A stretch of 32,207 bases of DNA from a virus. The translations under genes were made by a program, and so were the position numbers. Location: positions 1 through 32,207 of IMG/VR virus record IMGVR_UViG_3300028415_000001, one strand, 5' to 3'. Each line of letters starts with the position of its first letter. Positions within the stretch are counted from its first letter, which is position 1. The notes beneath the pieces are model-generated. The model was given only the letters and a program-made list of their open reading frames with translations, was not told the origin of the DNA and ran no database searches. Positions 1,641 through 32,207 of this stretch are shown piece after piece.

Positions 1641-1668
1641 TTGCTTTATATTTTTAACACTGTATATT
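1641..1668 (+). promoter_or_regulatory. Predicted promoter of the recombination operon
   Basis: TTGCTT (1641-1646), 16 bases, TATATT (1663-1668) precedes the ATPase start at 1751. The surrounding gap is AT-rich and offers other possible -10 boxes, so the exact choice is uncertain. Confidence 0.4.
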
Positions 1669-1750
1669 GATAGGTATAGAAGCAAAAGAAACAATTGATT
1701 TCATACTGGCTGACGGGTTCAGATTTGATAAAACTTTTAAAGGGGAAAAG

Positions 1751-3673
1751 ATGAAACTAACACTACAAAAATTGGTACTGCGAAACTTCAAAGGAATTAA
1801 GGATTTCACCCTTGATACTTACAACAAAGACGTAAAAATCTTTGGTGATAATGCAACTGGAAAGACGACCTTAATGGACGCTGTTTCTTGGCTACTGTTC
1901 GATAAAGACAGCCTTAACCAGAAGCAATTTGAGATCAAGACTTTGAAGGATGGTGTGGCGATTCCGAAACTTGAACATGAAGTGGAGGCAGTTTTCATAC
2001 TGGATGATTCACCAATTAAACTTAAAAAGATTTACAAGGAAAAGTACACCAAGAAGCGCGGTCAGGCTGTTGCGGAGTTTACTGGCCACACTACCAACTA
2101 TTTTATTGACGATGTACCTGCAAGCAAGGGAGACTTTACAAGTAAGGTGGTTTCGTTATCATGTACTGAGGATGTTTTCCGACTGCTCACCAGCCCGACA
2201 CATTTCTCGCAGAATTTAACCTGGCAGAAACAACGGGAGTTACTGCTTGAGGTTTGCGGAGGAATTACGGATCAAGACGTTATTGACTCGGACGATAGTT
2301 TATCCGGTCTTCCTGCAATTCTTGACGGCAAAACATGCGACGATAGAAAAGCGATAATTGGCGCAACAAGAAAGAAGATAAACGACGAGATTAAAAGTAT
2401 TCCTGCACGTATCGACGAGCTGTCGAGGAATGAAGTTGAGCATGTAAATGTCACAGAAATAAATGAGAAGATTTCTGAATTACGAAAACAAGTAGCGGGC
2501 AAAGACCAAGAAATATTTTCAATTAAAAACGGCGATGAGATAGGTAAAAAGAGAAACGAAATTGCCTCGCTCGATAATCAAATTGAAAAGATTAAAAGCG
2601 AGCTTGGTAATACAAACAATTCTGCTATTTACGAAAAGAAAAAAGTATTGAGCGGAATTAAAGACAGGATTGCAGAGTTTAACCGAGAAATTCAAAACAA
2701 GAAAAACAGTATTGCCGGGCATGAAAATATCCTGAAAAAAGGCGAAGCCGAGTTAGAGCGATTACGGGGCGAGTTCAAGCAGATTGTAGGGAAAGAATTT
2801 ACGGCTGAAAGTTGCCCAACGTGCGGCAAGGCGATGACTGCAACAGAAGAAGAGGCGGCTTTAAAAAAGTTTAACCTCAATAAGTCAAATCTTATCGAGG
2901 CGAACAAGTCCGCAGGCAAGGAACAGGCTTTCAAAAACAAGAACTATGAAACCGTTATTTCAGCGGAGAAAAAAGAAGTTGCTGAGCTTGGCGAAAATAT
3001 AAAGTTTCAGGAGAAAGGAAAGCGTGACATTGAGAATGAAATAAAAGTATTGGAAAACGCTGTTACTCTGCTTGCTGATAATAAAGAATATCAAGTAGCT
3101 TTATCTAAACAATGTGAGCTTACAAAGGATGTTAAATCACTCGAAAACGGAAACACCGAGCTAATAGAATCCATCAAGGAAAAACGGTCAGAATTACGAG
3201 CCGAGGCAACCAGTTATGAGGAACAAATATCAACGGCAAAGCAGGCAGAGCAAAACAAAAAGCGCATCGAAGAATTGAACGCCCAAGAAAAAGCGTTGGC
3301 CCACGAATACGAAATACTCGAAGGTCATTTGTTTTTGATTGAGCAGTTTATAAAGGTAAAGGTTTCGATGCTCGAAGAGCGGATAAATAATAAGTTTGCA
3401 TTTGTTTCTTTTCGATTGTTTAAAGATCAAATTAACGATGGCGTGAGGGAAGTTTGCGAAGTGACGGTTGACGGTGTGCCTTACTGGTCGCTGAATAACG
3501 CAGCACGGATTCAAGCAGGTCTTGATATTATCAATACGATGAGCAATCACTATAAGTTTTCACCGAATATTTTTATTGATAACAGGGAAAGCGTAACCAG
3601 CATTCCTGAAGTTGGGGCGCAGGTTATTAGCTTGATTGTTTCTGAGCAGGATAAAACTTTGCGTGTCGAATAA
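1751..3673 (+). CDS. SMC/Rad50-like AAA ATPase of a phage recombination module
   Basis: The start at 1751 is preferred over an upstream TTG at 1667 because AGGGG lies six bases before it; the product is 640 aa. The N-terminus carries the RecF/Rad50 type opening 'LRNFKGIKDF' and a Walker A 'GDNATGKTT' at residues 32-40. A long Lys/Glu-rich coiled coil covers about 210-560, broken by a zinc-hook-like CPTC at residues 355-358. The C-terminal head has 'SLNNAARIQAGLDII' in place of the ABC signature and 'IFIDNRESV' as a Walker B-like strand. It is followed by RecT, as in phages that pair such an ATPase with an annealase. No SbcD/Mre11-type nuclease is encoded beside it. It probably processes or tethers DNA ends during replication-linked recombination. 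Confidence 0.85.
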   Translation: MKLTLQKLVLRNFKGIKDFTLDTYNKDVKIFGDNATGKTTLMDAVSWLLFDKDSLNQKQFEIKTLKDGVAIPKLEHEVEAVFILDDSPIKLKKIYKEKYTKKRGQAVAEFTGHTTNYFIDDVPASKGDFTSKVVSLSCTEDVFRLLTSPTHFSQNLTWQKQRELLLEVCGGITDQDVIDSDDSLSGLPAILDGKTCDDRKAIIGATRKKINDEIKSIPARIDELSRNEVEHVNVTEINEKISELRKQVAGKDQEIFSIKNGDEIGKKRNEIASLDNQIEKIKSELGNTNNSAIYEKKKVLSGIKDRIAEFNREIQNKKNSIAGHENILKKGEAELERLRGEFKQIVGKEFTAESCPTCGKAMTATEEEAALKKFNLNKSNLIEANKSAGKEQAFKNKNYETVISAEKKEVAELGENIKFQEKGKRDIENEIKVLENAVTLLADNKEYQVALSKQCELTKDVKSLENGNTELIESIKEKRSELRAEATSYEEQISTAKQAEQNKKRIEELNAQEKALAHEYEILEGHLFLIEQFIKVKVSMLEERINNKFAFVSFRLFKDQINDGVREVCEVTVDGVPYWSLNNAARIQAGLDIINTMSNHYKFSPNIFIDNRESVTSIPEVGAQVISLIVSEQDKTLRVE

Positions 3674-3753: not shown

Positions 3754-4590
3754 ATGGCACAAGGAAATGAAGTAGCAAAAAAACAAGCAACACCAGTAGA
3801 CAAATTAAAACAGGTTCTGGCGAGCGATAGCATACAGCAACAGTTCAAGAATGCCTTGGCTGATAACGCTAATCTGTTCACTGCATCACTGGTTGACCTT
3901 TACGCAGGTGACAGCTATCTCCAAAAGTGTGAACCTGCCTTGGTGGTACTGGAAGCATTAAAAGCGGCAACGTTGAAATTGCCTATAAGTAAGTCTCTTG
4001 GTTTTGCCTATATTATCGCATACGGCGGAAAGCCTCAATTTATCCTTGGATATAAAGGCTTGGTGCAACTAGCAATGAGAAGCGGAGTATATAGGTGCAT
4101 CAATGCCGGGACTGTTTACGAAGGCGAACTGAGATCATCAAGTAAGCTGACGGGAGAAATTGACCTGACAGGCACGAAAACAAGCGAAAACCCTATCGGA
4201 TACTTTGCATACATTGAAACGATAAACGGCTTCAAAAAAACCATGTATTGCAATATTGACGATATGCGGGAGCATGGCAAAAAGTATAGTAAGTCATACA
4301 ACCAACATTCATCACCTTGGAAAAAAGAGTTTGACGGAATGGCTGAAAAAACCATGCTGAGAATGCTGCTCGGTAAATATGGACAAATGTCTATTGATAT
4401 GGCTGACGGTATGGCTGACGGTATGGCGCAAGAGGCGGATCCTGATTATGTCGGAGATGGTGGATACTCTGATAATGGAAACAAGGATTTTATCGACGTT
4501 GATACTGACACTGGCGAAGTTAAACAGGTTGACGATACCGAAGCATCAACAGAAGCAGACTTGAAAAAAGAAATGGATCCTGGTTACTAA
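3754..4590 (+). CDS. recT: RecT-family single-strand annealing protein
   Basis: A 278-aa protein with the usual size and layout of RecT. The recognisable core runs from about residue 15 to 220, with the family-typical stretches 'ALKAATLKLPISKSLGFAYIIAYGGK' (in part) and 'QFILGYKGLVQLAMRSGVY'. The C-terminal tail is acidic, as often seen in RecT, and contains the short repeat MADGMADGM, encoded by a duplicated 12-base unit. The start at 3754 has AAGGAG upstream. Its stop overlaps the next start as TAATG, so the hydrolase gene downstream is probably coupled to it. Role: anneals complementary single strands during phage recombination, normally with an exonuclease. No RecE/lambda exo is present here, so the ATPase, the MBL-fold protein or the VRR-NUC protein may take that place. 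Confidence 0.9.
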   Translation: MAQGNEVAKKQATPVDKLKQVLASDSIQQQFKNALADNANLFTASLVDLYAGDSYLQKCEPALVVLEALKAATLKLPISKSLGFAYIIAYGGKPQFILGYKGLVQLAMRSGVYRCINAGTVYEGELRSSSKLTGEIDLTGTKTSENPIGYFAYIETINGFKKTMYCNIDDMREHGKKYSKSYNQHSSPWKKEFDGMAEKTMLRMLLGKYGQMSIDMADGMADGMAQEADPDYVGDGGYSDNGNKDFIDVDTDTGEVKQVDDTEASTEADLKKEMDPGY

Positions 4591-5286
4591 TGTTTAAAAT
4601 AAAATCAATAGCGAGCAGTTCAGAAGGTAATTGCTATTTGGTTTCAAGCGGAGAGACATCTATACTTATTGAGTTTGGGTTGTCTTTCCGTAAGATCAAA
4701 CAGGCATTGAATTTTGATACGTCTTCCGTCGTGGGGTGTCTCGTAACCCACGACCATCTTTGACCATGCAAAAGGTGCAAAGGATGCAATAAAAGCAGGA
4801 ATGGACATATATGCAACCAAAGGCACGTTTTTAGCACTACAATTAAGCGGGCATAGGTGTAAACGCATCCGTGCTGGTAACCAGTTCAAGTTGGGCGATT
4901 TCGACATAATGCCATTTAAAACGGTACACGATGCGGCTGAGCCTGTTGGCTTTTTAATTGCCAACAGTAAGGGCGAAAAGCTTTTGTTTTTAACCGATAC
5001 TGCATACTGTGAATATAAGTTTAAGGGACTAACTCAAATAATGATAGAGTGTAATTTTTCAAACGATATTCTAAATGATCAGGATATGCCGACAGGACAA
5101 AAACAGAGATTGCTTGATTCTCATATGAGCCTTGAGCGTGTACTGGATTTCTTCGAAGAGAACGATATTGGCAAGCTGGAAGAGGTGCATTTGATACATT
5201 TGTCTGATGGCAATAGTGACGAAAAGTTGTTTAAGCGAAAGGTGCAGGAAGTTGTGGGAGTGCCTGTTTACGTTTGTGGAGCTTGA
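4590..5286 (+). CDS. Metallo-beta-lactamase-fold hydrolase, frame broken at CTT TGA C
   Basis: Frame 0 starts at the ATG at 4590 (TAATG overlap with recT) and reads 57 codons, ending in 'VTHDHL' before an in-frame TGA at 4761-4763. Moving +1 at this point continues as 'DHAKGAKDA' and stays open to 5286. The join restores the HxHxDH zinc motif exactly and gives a 231-aa protein of normal size. The other family landmarks are intact after the break: 'VHDAAEPVGF' (His), 'LLFLTDTAY' (Asp), 'SHMS' (His) and a late 'LIHLSD'. The break is at CTTTGAC (4758-4764), the heptamer used for the +1 frameshift in prfB. It is either a programmed frameshift, a fresh mutation or a sequence error; the intact remainder argues against an old pseudogene. 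MBL proteins of this YycJ-like type are common beside recT in phages. Confidence 0.8.
4728..4764 (+). promoter_or_regulatory. Candidate +1 recoding site: hairpin plus CTTTGAC
   Basis: A perfect 8-bp stem, GTCGTGGG (4728-4735) with CCCACGAC (4747-4754) and an 11-base loop, ends three bases before CTTTGAC (4758-4764). In prfB the stimulator is a Shine-Dalgarno-like AGGGGG three bases before the same CTT. That element is absent here, and a stem occupies its place. The recoding role is an inference. Confidence 0.4.
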
Positions 5287-5287
5287 T

Positions 5288-5503
5288 ATGGCAGGTGAGA
5301 AAATGATAAAAGGCTGTCACGCATACGGGCGGCACGACCTATGCCCTGAGTCTTGGTGCAAGCGATCACAGGGCGATTGGTGTTCAGAATATAAATGCTT
5401 GCACTACGATGGGCGGGAAAAAAGTATATTTCAGATTGAGAAGGAGAAGGGCGATGAAACAAATGAAACAAATACTCCCAACAGAGAGCCAAGAACAGAT
5501 TGA
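5288..5503 (+). CDS. Small Cys-rich protein of unknown function
   Basis: A 71-aa product from the ATG at 5288, which has GGAG upstream; a second ATG at 5303 has AGGTGAG before it and is also possible. The first 40 residues hold five Cys and three His in short spacings (around 'GCHAYGRHDLCPESWC'), which suggests a metal-binding fold. The tail is polar and charged and overlaps the start of the VRR-NUC gene. It sits in the recombination operon, between the MBL-fold hydrolase and the nuclease. No family is recognised. Confidence 0.55.
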   Translation: MAGEKMIKGCHAYGRHDLCPESWCKRSQGDWCSEYKCLHYDGREKSIFQIEKEKGDETNETNTPNREPRTD

Positions 5504-5834
5504 ATTTATACAATGGGCAGACATGTTCTTCAATGGCAACGATGAGTTCGTTTTTGCAATCCCTAACGGTGGTCTGCGTAATGTTGTAGTTGCGAAAAAG
5601 ATGAAGGCAGAAGGTGTCAAGGCTGGCGTTCCAGATTTATTTTTCACCCTCGCCCGTGGTGGGTATCACGGTCTTTTTATCGAAATGAAAAGGATCAAAG
5701 GCGGCTCGACCAGCAAAGACCAAAAAGATAAAATTGAGCGGTTACGGAACTGCGGCTATAAAGTTGATATTTGTAAGGGCTTCGACGAGGCCAAGAAGTC
5801 AATTCTTGAATATGTACAAATGCGAGGTGTGTAA
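5454..5834 (+). CDS. VRR-NUC domain nuclease
   Basis: A 126-aa protein; the ATG at 5454 is chosen for the AAGGAG before it and overlaps the end of the previous gene. It shows the VRR-NUC landmarks in order: an N-terminal helix with 'ESQEQIEFIQWA', the strand 'FAIPNGG', 'EGVKAGVPDLFF' with the catalytic-type Asp, and 'GLFIEMKR' with the Glu-x-Lys pair, followed by a Ser/Gln helix. Phage VRR-NUC proteins are standalone PD-(D/E)xK nucleases often encoded with recT and replication genes, and are thought to resolve branched DNA. The size is normal for the phage form. Confidence 0.85.
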   Translation: MKQMKQILPTESQEQIEFIQWADMFFNGNDEFVFAIPNGGLRNVVVAKKMKAEGVKAGVPDLFFTLARGGYHGLFIEMKRIKGGSTSKDQKDKIERLRNCGYKVDICKGFDEAKKSILEYVQMRGV

Positions 5835-28807: not shown

Positions 28808-29356
28808 TTACACGAAACTCCCGTTGAAAAAATCAAGATTGGCTTCATGAAGATTGGATCCGAGAACAATGGCTCCGCGAAAATTGGATCCATAGAGATT
28901 GGTTTCATAAAAATTGGTTTTATAAAATTTGGATCTATGAAAATCGACTCCGCGAAGATTGGATTCGCGAAAATCGGCTTTATAAAAATTGGCTCTACGA
29001 ATATCGCATCCGCGAAGATCGGTTTCACAAAATTTGGCTTTATAACAATCGGTTTCACAAAAATTGGCTTCACGAAGATCGGACCCATAAAAATCGCATC
29101 TGCGAAGATCGCATCCGCGAAAATTAGCTCCACGAAGTTCGGATTCATAAAAACTGGCTTCACGAAGATCGGACCCATAAAAATCGCATCCGGAAAGATC
29201 GCATCCGCAAAAACTGGCTTCACGAAGATCGAATCCACAAAAATCGACTTCACGAAGATCGGCTCCGCAAAAATTGGCTTGTTCTCCCTGCTTTTTATCC
29301 GAATCTATCCAAATTTTATGAGCTTTCAACATTTTTTGTAGTTTAGAATTTTCCAT
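28808..29356 (-). CDS. Cys-rich pentapeptide-repeat protein
   Basis: A 182-aa protein. Residues 1-26 are a polar leader (MENSKLQKMLKAHKIWID). From about 27 to 175 the sequence is tandem pentapeptides of the A(D/N)LxX type, here often 'FCGxDLREAxF' with Leu/Phe at the central position, which predicts a right-handed quadrilateral beta helix. Cys and Tyr are unusually frequent at outward positions. The underlying DNA is a 15-base repeat, which keeps the other frames open over the same stretch. Pentapeptide proteins include DNA-mimicking gyrase inhibitors (MfpA, Qnr) and effectors; no basis exists here to choose. It has its own promoter copy at 29402-29430. Confidence 0.85.
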   Translation of the reverse strand: MENSKLQKMLKAHKIWIDSDKKQGEQANFCGADLREVDFCGFDLREASFCGCDLSGCDFYGSDLREASFYESELRGANFRGCDLRRCDFYGSDLREANFCETDCYKAKFCETDLRGCDIRRANFYKADFRESNLRGVDFHRSKFYKTNFYETNLYGSNFRGAIVLGSNLHEANLDFFNGSFV

Positions 29357-29361
29357 TTGGG

Positions 29362-29467
29362 TCTCCTTTTTTTTGGGTTAATTCCCTTTGTTTATGATTA
29401 TAATATACAGCATTATCAAAGGAGTGTCAATAGAAAAACATATACATTTTTATCTTTCACCGTTTTT
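29362..29467. repeat. Duplicated promoter segment, copy 1
   Basis: About 106 bp nearly identical to 30541-30648 (the difference seen is in the length of a T run). It lies directly upstream of the pentapeptide gene and contains the promoter annotated at 29402-29430. Confidence 0.92.
29402..29430 (-). promoter_or_regulatory. Promoter of the pentapeptide gene with inverted repeat
   Basis: On the minus strand TTGACA (29430-29425), 17 bases, TATATT (29407-29402). The core is framed by CCTTTG (29385-29390) and CAAAGG (29417-29422), an inverted repeat that could be an operator. Confidence 0.75.
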
Positions 29468-30540: not shown

Positions 30541-30648
30541 TCTCCTTTTTTTTTTGGGTTAATTCCCTTTGTTTATGATTATAATATACAGCATTATCAA
30601 AGGAGTGTCAATAGAAAAACATATACATTTTTATCTTTCACCGTTTTT
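30541..30648. repeat. Duplicated promoter segment, copy 2
   Basis: Near-identical to 29362-29467. It runs directly into the left arm of the duplicated locus at 30639, so two different repeats adjoin here. Confidence 0.92.
30583..30611 (-). promoter_or_regulatory. Promoter of the accessory operon with inverted repeat
   Basis: Minus strand TTGACA (30611-30606), 17 bases, TATATT (30588-30583), framed by CCTTTG (30566-30571) and CAAAGG (30598-30603), the same as in copy 1. Confidence 0.75.
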
Positions 30649-32068: not shown

Positions 32069-32087
32069 AATTTACTCCTTGGTATTT
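32025..32087. repeat. Right arm, copy B, flanking the toxin-antitoxin cassette
   Basis: 63 bp matching 23801-23863 with three mismatches, same orientation. With the left arm (30639-30776) it brackets the cassette in the way copy A brackets the HTH gene. Confidence 0.9.
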
Positions 32088-32207
32088 GCTCATGTTTTTA
32101 TCCGATTGATTTATGTAAACTTTTCACAAAAGAACTTGGGTTTGGTAGGCTCTTGCTATCAAGGTGTTTGTTCCTATCACTAACCCTCTCCATGTCTATT
32201 CTGCCAT
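32081..32207. repeat. Terminal overlap of a circular assembly (copy 2)
   Basis: Identical to bases 1-127; see the entry there. On the circle, base 32080 is followed by base 1. Confidence 0.9.

Follow-up and report, generated by a model that had tools for sequence, protein, structure and literature searches.

An in-frame UGA in the zinc-binding motif of a phage hydrolase

How does a phage make a complete enzyme from a gene whose catalytic motif is interrupted by a stop codon? The question is raised by an MBL-fold hydrolase gene in the DNA analyzed here, a viral contig of 32,207 nucleotides from IMG/VR record IMGVR_UViG_3300028415_000001 (the window, meaning this whole stretch). The gene was read in two open reading frames on the plus strand. 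The first (frame 0, 4590..4763) encodes 57 aa corresponding to the N-terminal part of the hydrolase and ends in T-H-D-H-L, followed by TGA at 4761-4763 inside the zinc-binding motif HxHL|DH. The second (+1 frame, 4762..5286) starts at GAC (D58), ends with a TGA stop at 5284-5286 and encodes 174 aa; it begins DHAKGAKDA and matches Pfam Lactamase_B_2. Both parts gave matches to a single phage family, phrog_392 (E = 8.5e-18 and 1.7e-51, respectively). A +1 step at the heptamer CTTTGAC (4758..4764, plus strand), which is identical to the prfB +1 site, restores HxHLDH and a hydrolase of 231 aa, confirming what the original prediction had read from these letters. The fused product aligned with intact relatives, matched the phrog_392 profile, and retained the conserved metal-motif residues H54, H56, D58, H59, H113, D136 and H203. 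Its predicted structure was a complete MBL fold (mean pLDDT 95.5), with YhfI, a B. anthracis ELAC homologue and RNase-Z-like proteins as the best structural neighbours.

The hydrolase gene lies in a recombination cluster on the plus strand. Directly upstream is a RecT-family single-strand annealing protein (3754..4590; Pfam RecT E = 1.7e-38, phrog_148), whose stop codon overlaps the hydrolase start codon (ATG, 4590-4592) in the sequence TAATG. An SbcC/Rad50-like ATPase (1667..3673; phrog_77 E = 1.8e-72) belongs to the same cluster, and a nuclease with a VRR_NUC domain (5409..5834; Pfam VRR_NUC E = 1.2e-11) follows downstream of the hydrolase. TGA is an ordinary stop codon in this genome. Stop-codon readthrough was rejected because frame 0 beyond the TGA does not encode the hydrolase, and a run of only three T spoke against transcript slippage, which was likewise rejected.

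The CTTTGAC junction recurs in diverged lineages

To examine the distribution of the site, a degenerate pattern comprising the motif and CTTTGAY was scanned over 2.9 million viral contigs. The scan returned 15 contigs, and all 15 carried two-frame MBL genes joined at this point. The same CTTTGAC junction was present in an actinobacterial MAG contig from a genome collection. Counting that of the window, 12 diverged lineages from independent metagenomes and the one actinobacterial MAG share CTTTGAC at the same codon; several of them rest on one contig. The proteins of the other lineages are about 40-50% identical to that of the window, with L228 more distant. As CTT and TGA were fixed by the search pattern, their presence in the matches is no evidence by itself. 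The evidence comes from a control scan of the 2.9 million viral contigs in which any four letters (NNNN) were allowed between H-[DE]-H and D-H, equivalent to any one-base insertion. This analysis revealed 12 viral contigs, all already known, and CTTT was the inserted word in 12/12. Random insertions would have had to miss the 255 other words, some of which form longer homopolymers, for instance GGGG where relatives carry Gly at this position. The base after TGA was left open in the search pattern, and it was C in 12/12 shifted lineages, compared with GAC codons in 45/79 intact relatives. No further disruption was detected in any shifted gene of the 12 lineages.

Pattern matches in cellular genomes, with the exception of L139, were attributed to chance by a check of the two-frame layout, for example where a downstream frame was already open for 50-300 codons upstream. 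Shifted genes are rare: about 20 contigs carry them, compared with at least 529 loci that a single homology scan matched, and no two-piece match was found among the annotated phage or plasmid matches listed. In the intact relatives the Leu codon varies freely (CTG, CTT, TTA, CTC, CTA, TTG); Leu occupied the x position of HxHxDH in 19/79, two of them with CTT, in a scan whose query was biased towards Leu. Judged by these comparisons, the finding is a recurrent cassette and not one gene. More such genes may be hidden in viral data, since gene finders would split them or call them pseudogenes.

A hairpin directly upstream of the slippery site

No Shine-Dalgarno element was identified upstream of the site in any of the 12 lineages, with anti-Shine-Dalgarno duplex energies from +2.2 to -2.4 kcal/mol compared with -10.3 kcal/mol for a prfB-type element, and no significant downstream structure or stimulator was found in any of them. 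The window has an upstream RNA hairpin of 27 nt (4728..4754, plus strand; -14.9 kcal/mol), with a perfect 8-bp stem (4728-4735 with 4747-4754) and an 11-nt loop. The stem ends at 4754, exactly 3 nt before CTT (4758-4760) and at the edge of the E-site codon. The three spacer nucleotides are this codon, CAT (4755..4757, plus strand), which is CAT in 10/12 lineages and CAC in 2. The stem and its distance from the site were as originally predicted. A search of Rfam gave no match.

The fold energy of the 101-nt region was ordinary compared with dinucleotide shuffles (z = -0.83). A better test of the hairpin was synonymous-codon recoding of the 33 nt before CTT. This gave p = 0.013 for the window and p < 0.05 in 7/12 shifted lineages, with a combined p of 6.6e-8 over the 12 lineages, which were treated as independent although L226 and L227 are related. 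Only 2.5% of intact relatives (n = 79) fell below p = 0.05. The mean z of the shifted set was -1.98 directly 5' of the site and ranged from -0.7 to +0.8 elsewhere in the gene. In the five lineages that share the register of the window, three of the 8 pairs had changed on both sides (G-C/C-G, U-A/C-G and C-G/A-U), and 95% of cells were paired in register compared with 37-50% when the partner was slid, a one-base slide giving 40-45%. An alignment of only five sequences therefore suggests that base pairing, rather than sequence, is conserved in the stem. In L224, L226 and L227 the register of the hairpin differs slightly.

L033, L200/L214, L225 and L228, about four of the 12 shifted lineages, showed neither a stem nor any other visible stimulator, and for this reason the stem appears to be a frequent rather than an obligatory stimulator. 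The idea that the stem stands in for the Shine-Dalgarno element is supported: the stem is position-specific, covarying and has an engineered precedent (PMC6321510), but it is not universal. Among the relatives, the TGA was kept in 12 lineages and the stem in most of these; most relatives were uninterrupted.

The stem-less lineages are also the support for a reading in which the +1 shift is real and the hairpin does not stimulate it, with CTTTGAC alone sufficing at a low level or the stem acting on mRNA stability or initiation. This reading deserves to be kept in view as a minority possibility. Against it, the stem covaries, and its signal occurs only at the exact position 5' of the site and not in intact relatives; in the group of L226, L227 and L310, the intact sister has a weaker stem. 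We therefore favour the hairpin as the stimulator of the shift in the lineages that carry it.

Evidence for selection on both reading frames

If instead one T had been inserted into a formerly intact HxHLDH gene, by a recent indel or in a pseudogene, the enzyme would be dead. Most relatives are indeed intact, and some of them read CTT GAC or CTT GAT, from which one extra T would give the site. We compared L226 and L227, which are both shifted and 90% identical in protein. The dN/dS was 0.063 before the site (dS 1.22) and 0.073 after it (dS 0.86). Values of 0.06-0.07 in both halves at a dS of about 1 indicate that both frames are under strong purifying selection, and the site was kept over this divergence. 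Together with the exact junction common to twelve lineages, the lack of any other inserted word there and the otherwise undamaged shifted genes, this makes a pseudogene very improbable. The recurrence, the NNNN control and the two-frame selection all support the original proposal of a programmed +1 shift at a prfB-type CTT TGA C.

The shift has changed state within the family. L310 and L311, sister genes of L226/L227 (89% identical to L226), are uninterrupted and read CTC GAC, so the shift was gained or lost recently in this group. The shifted genes are dispersed over long branches of the protein tree, which requires four changes, at least two of them imposed by well-supported branches. The intact gene L218:3169 (GGG GAC) groups with shifted L078 and L033 and keeps 7/8 stem pairs, and it may possibly represent a reversion with a relict hairpin.

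Overlapping reading frames are common in phages, and the two frames could in principle yield separate chains, through termination followed by reinitiation, with a split enzyme formed from the two. This is hardly tenable here, as the split falls between two zinc ligands. In the window the first ATG of the second frame is at 4801, after D58 and H59. Reinitiation cannot rebuild the motif in 10/12 lineages because these have no ATG, GTG or TTG start in the +1 frame before GAC. A sequencing or assembly error, for which only the run of three T could be cited, and equally a private mutation, can be set aside, as the letters at the site were repeated in independent contigs (two 100% identical, L002/L041 and L003/L084; L004/L213 97% identical over 1118 nt, with 33 substitutions and the site kept) and in lineages with only about 40-50% protein identity.

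Comparison with prfB and with designed hairpins

At the prfB site, re-pairing of tRNA-Leu from CUU to UUU is assisted by a Shine-Dalgarno duplex located 3 nt upstream. The hydrolase site shares with prfB the CTT TGA C heptamer, the frame-0 TGA, the C after TGA, a +1 step that restores one protein, and a duplex element that ends 3 nt before CTT. Unlike prfB, the gene encodes no release factor but an MBL hydrolase of phrog_392; its site lacks a Shine-Dalgarno element and in most lineages has an intramolecular hairpin instead, and it is located inside a catalytic motif in phage genomes. The site would work like prfB frameshifting and is not a member of that family. A C after UGA is known to favour the prfB shift (PMC5009743). 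According to the authors of PRFect, all CUU-stop +1 entries of RECODE are prfB (PMC10885494), and no MBL cluster is named in the main text of the GeneTack survey (PMC3711429). CUU UGA C frameshifting, so far tied to one gene, now has a probable case in a phage enzyme family and at its catalytic motif.

An upstream hairpin was shown by Cho et al. (2013) to stimulate +1 shifting in yeast, with a 5' pulling force as the proposed cause, and the same authors raised the question of whether, on 70S ribosomes, a hairpin in cis could do the work of the Shine-Dalgarno duplex (PMC3639245). Huang, Cho and Chang (2018) subsequently reported that in an E. coli 70S extract +1 shifting at CUUUGA is stimulated by a hairpin designed into the upstream sequence, reaching about 60% of the Shine-Dalgarno level and only without RF2 (PMC6321510). 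The hydrolase hairpin resembles their construct in abutting the E-site codon, in the CUUUGA site and in the +1 direction. Their hairpin was artificial, 12 bp long and GC-rich, in contrast to the natural, selected hairpin of a real gene described here. No report of a natural upstream hairpin at such a +1 site was found in a search limited to open-access literature, where absence is not proof. The hydrolase genes look like the natural case of the hairpin that Huang et al. built and Cho et al. asked for, and their 12 variants, together with uninterrupted sister genes and relatives lacking the stem, are material at hand.

The RecT-linked MBL metal-dependent hydrolases of phrog_392, present in about 200 INPHARED phages, share the family, the RecT neighbourhood and HxHxDH with the window gene; unlike it, the known members are uninterrupted among the matches listed. 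The MBL fold and HxHxDH are also shared with the anti-Pycsar nuclease Apyc1, and two Porphyromonas phage homologues carry the Apyc1 label. The profile match to the solved Apyc1 was weak (E = 0.0027 over 52 aa), Foldseek placed Apyc1 at 14% identity behind YhfI, and there was no match to a defence family. Beyond the general motif, the sequence gives no clear support for an Apyc1-like activity, and no function was assigned.

A model for hairpin-stimulated +1 frameshifting

We propose that production of the hydrolase relies on programmed +1 frameshifting at an RF2-type site, with a refolding hairpin as the stimulator instead of a Shine-Dalgarno element, and we assign this reading a probability of nearly nine in ten in the absence of protein or reporter data. 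The sequence evidence shows that the site is conserved, that both frames are under selection and that a stem at the appropriate position is selected too, while the slippage itself, its efficiency and its dependence on RF2 are inferred. In the model, the ribosome would pause when CUU occupies the P site and UGA the A site, and slow termination would give tRNA-Leu time to re-pair on UUU. Having just been unwound, the 27-nt hairpin would form again next to the E site, on the trailing side of the ribosome, and exert a 5' pull on the mRNA, at the position that the Shine-Dalgarno duplex occupies in prfB. Peptidyl-tRNA-Leu would then slip from CUU to UUU and GAC would be the next codon, which would restore HxHLDH and with it the complete zinc hydrolase. 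Without slippage, a 57-aa peptide lacking the D-H half of the metal motif would be released, so enzyme output would be a set fraction of RecT-coupled translation. Because the RecT stop and the hydrolase start overlap, ribosomes leaving RecT would be expected to continue into the hydrolase gene; hydrolase and RecT would then be made at a low, fixed ratio determined by the shift. By analogy with prfB, slow UGA termination by RF2 would be expected to increase hydrolase output. A more speculative extension, which we regard as possible and on balance doubtful, is that phages have repeatedly wired a recombination-linked hydrolase to host UGA termination capacity; the hairpin and CUU UGA C would then form a sensor cassette, independent of prfB and the Shine-Dalgarno element, that switches the enzyme on at low RF2 activity in the infected cell.

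Additional features of the phage genomes

The gene just upstream of the hydrolase is RecT-like in L226 (9738-10604, reverse strand) and apparently another protein in L227 (4204-4995), and the two have similar C-terminal ends. The window carries an identical 127-bp direct repeat at 1-127 and 32081-32207, and contig L084 reads across the junction; the phage genome is therefore probably complete at about 32,080 bp. Identical 101-bp copies were identified at 29367-29467 and 30548-30648 in a region of small genes, as well as further repeat pairs at 23380-23463/30681-30764 (90%) and 23785-23863/32009-32087 (87%), all of which are possible regulatory or recombination elements. An open reading frame on the minus strand (28808-29356) has a 15-nt period over about 480 bp and encodes a pentapeptide-repeat-like protein; other frames of this stretch are open too.
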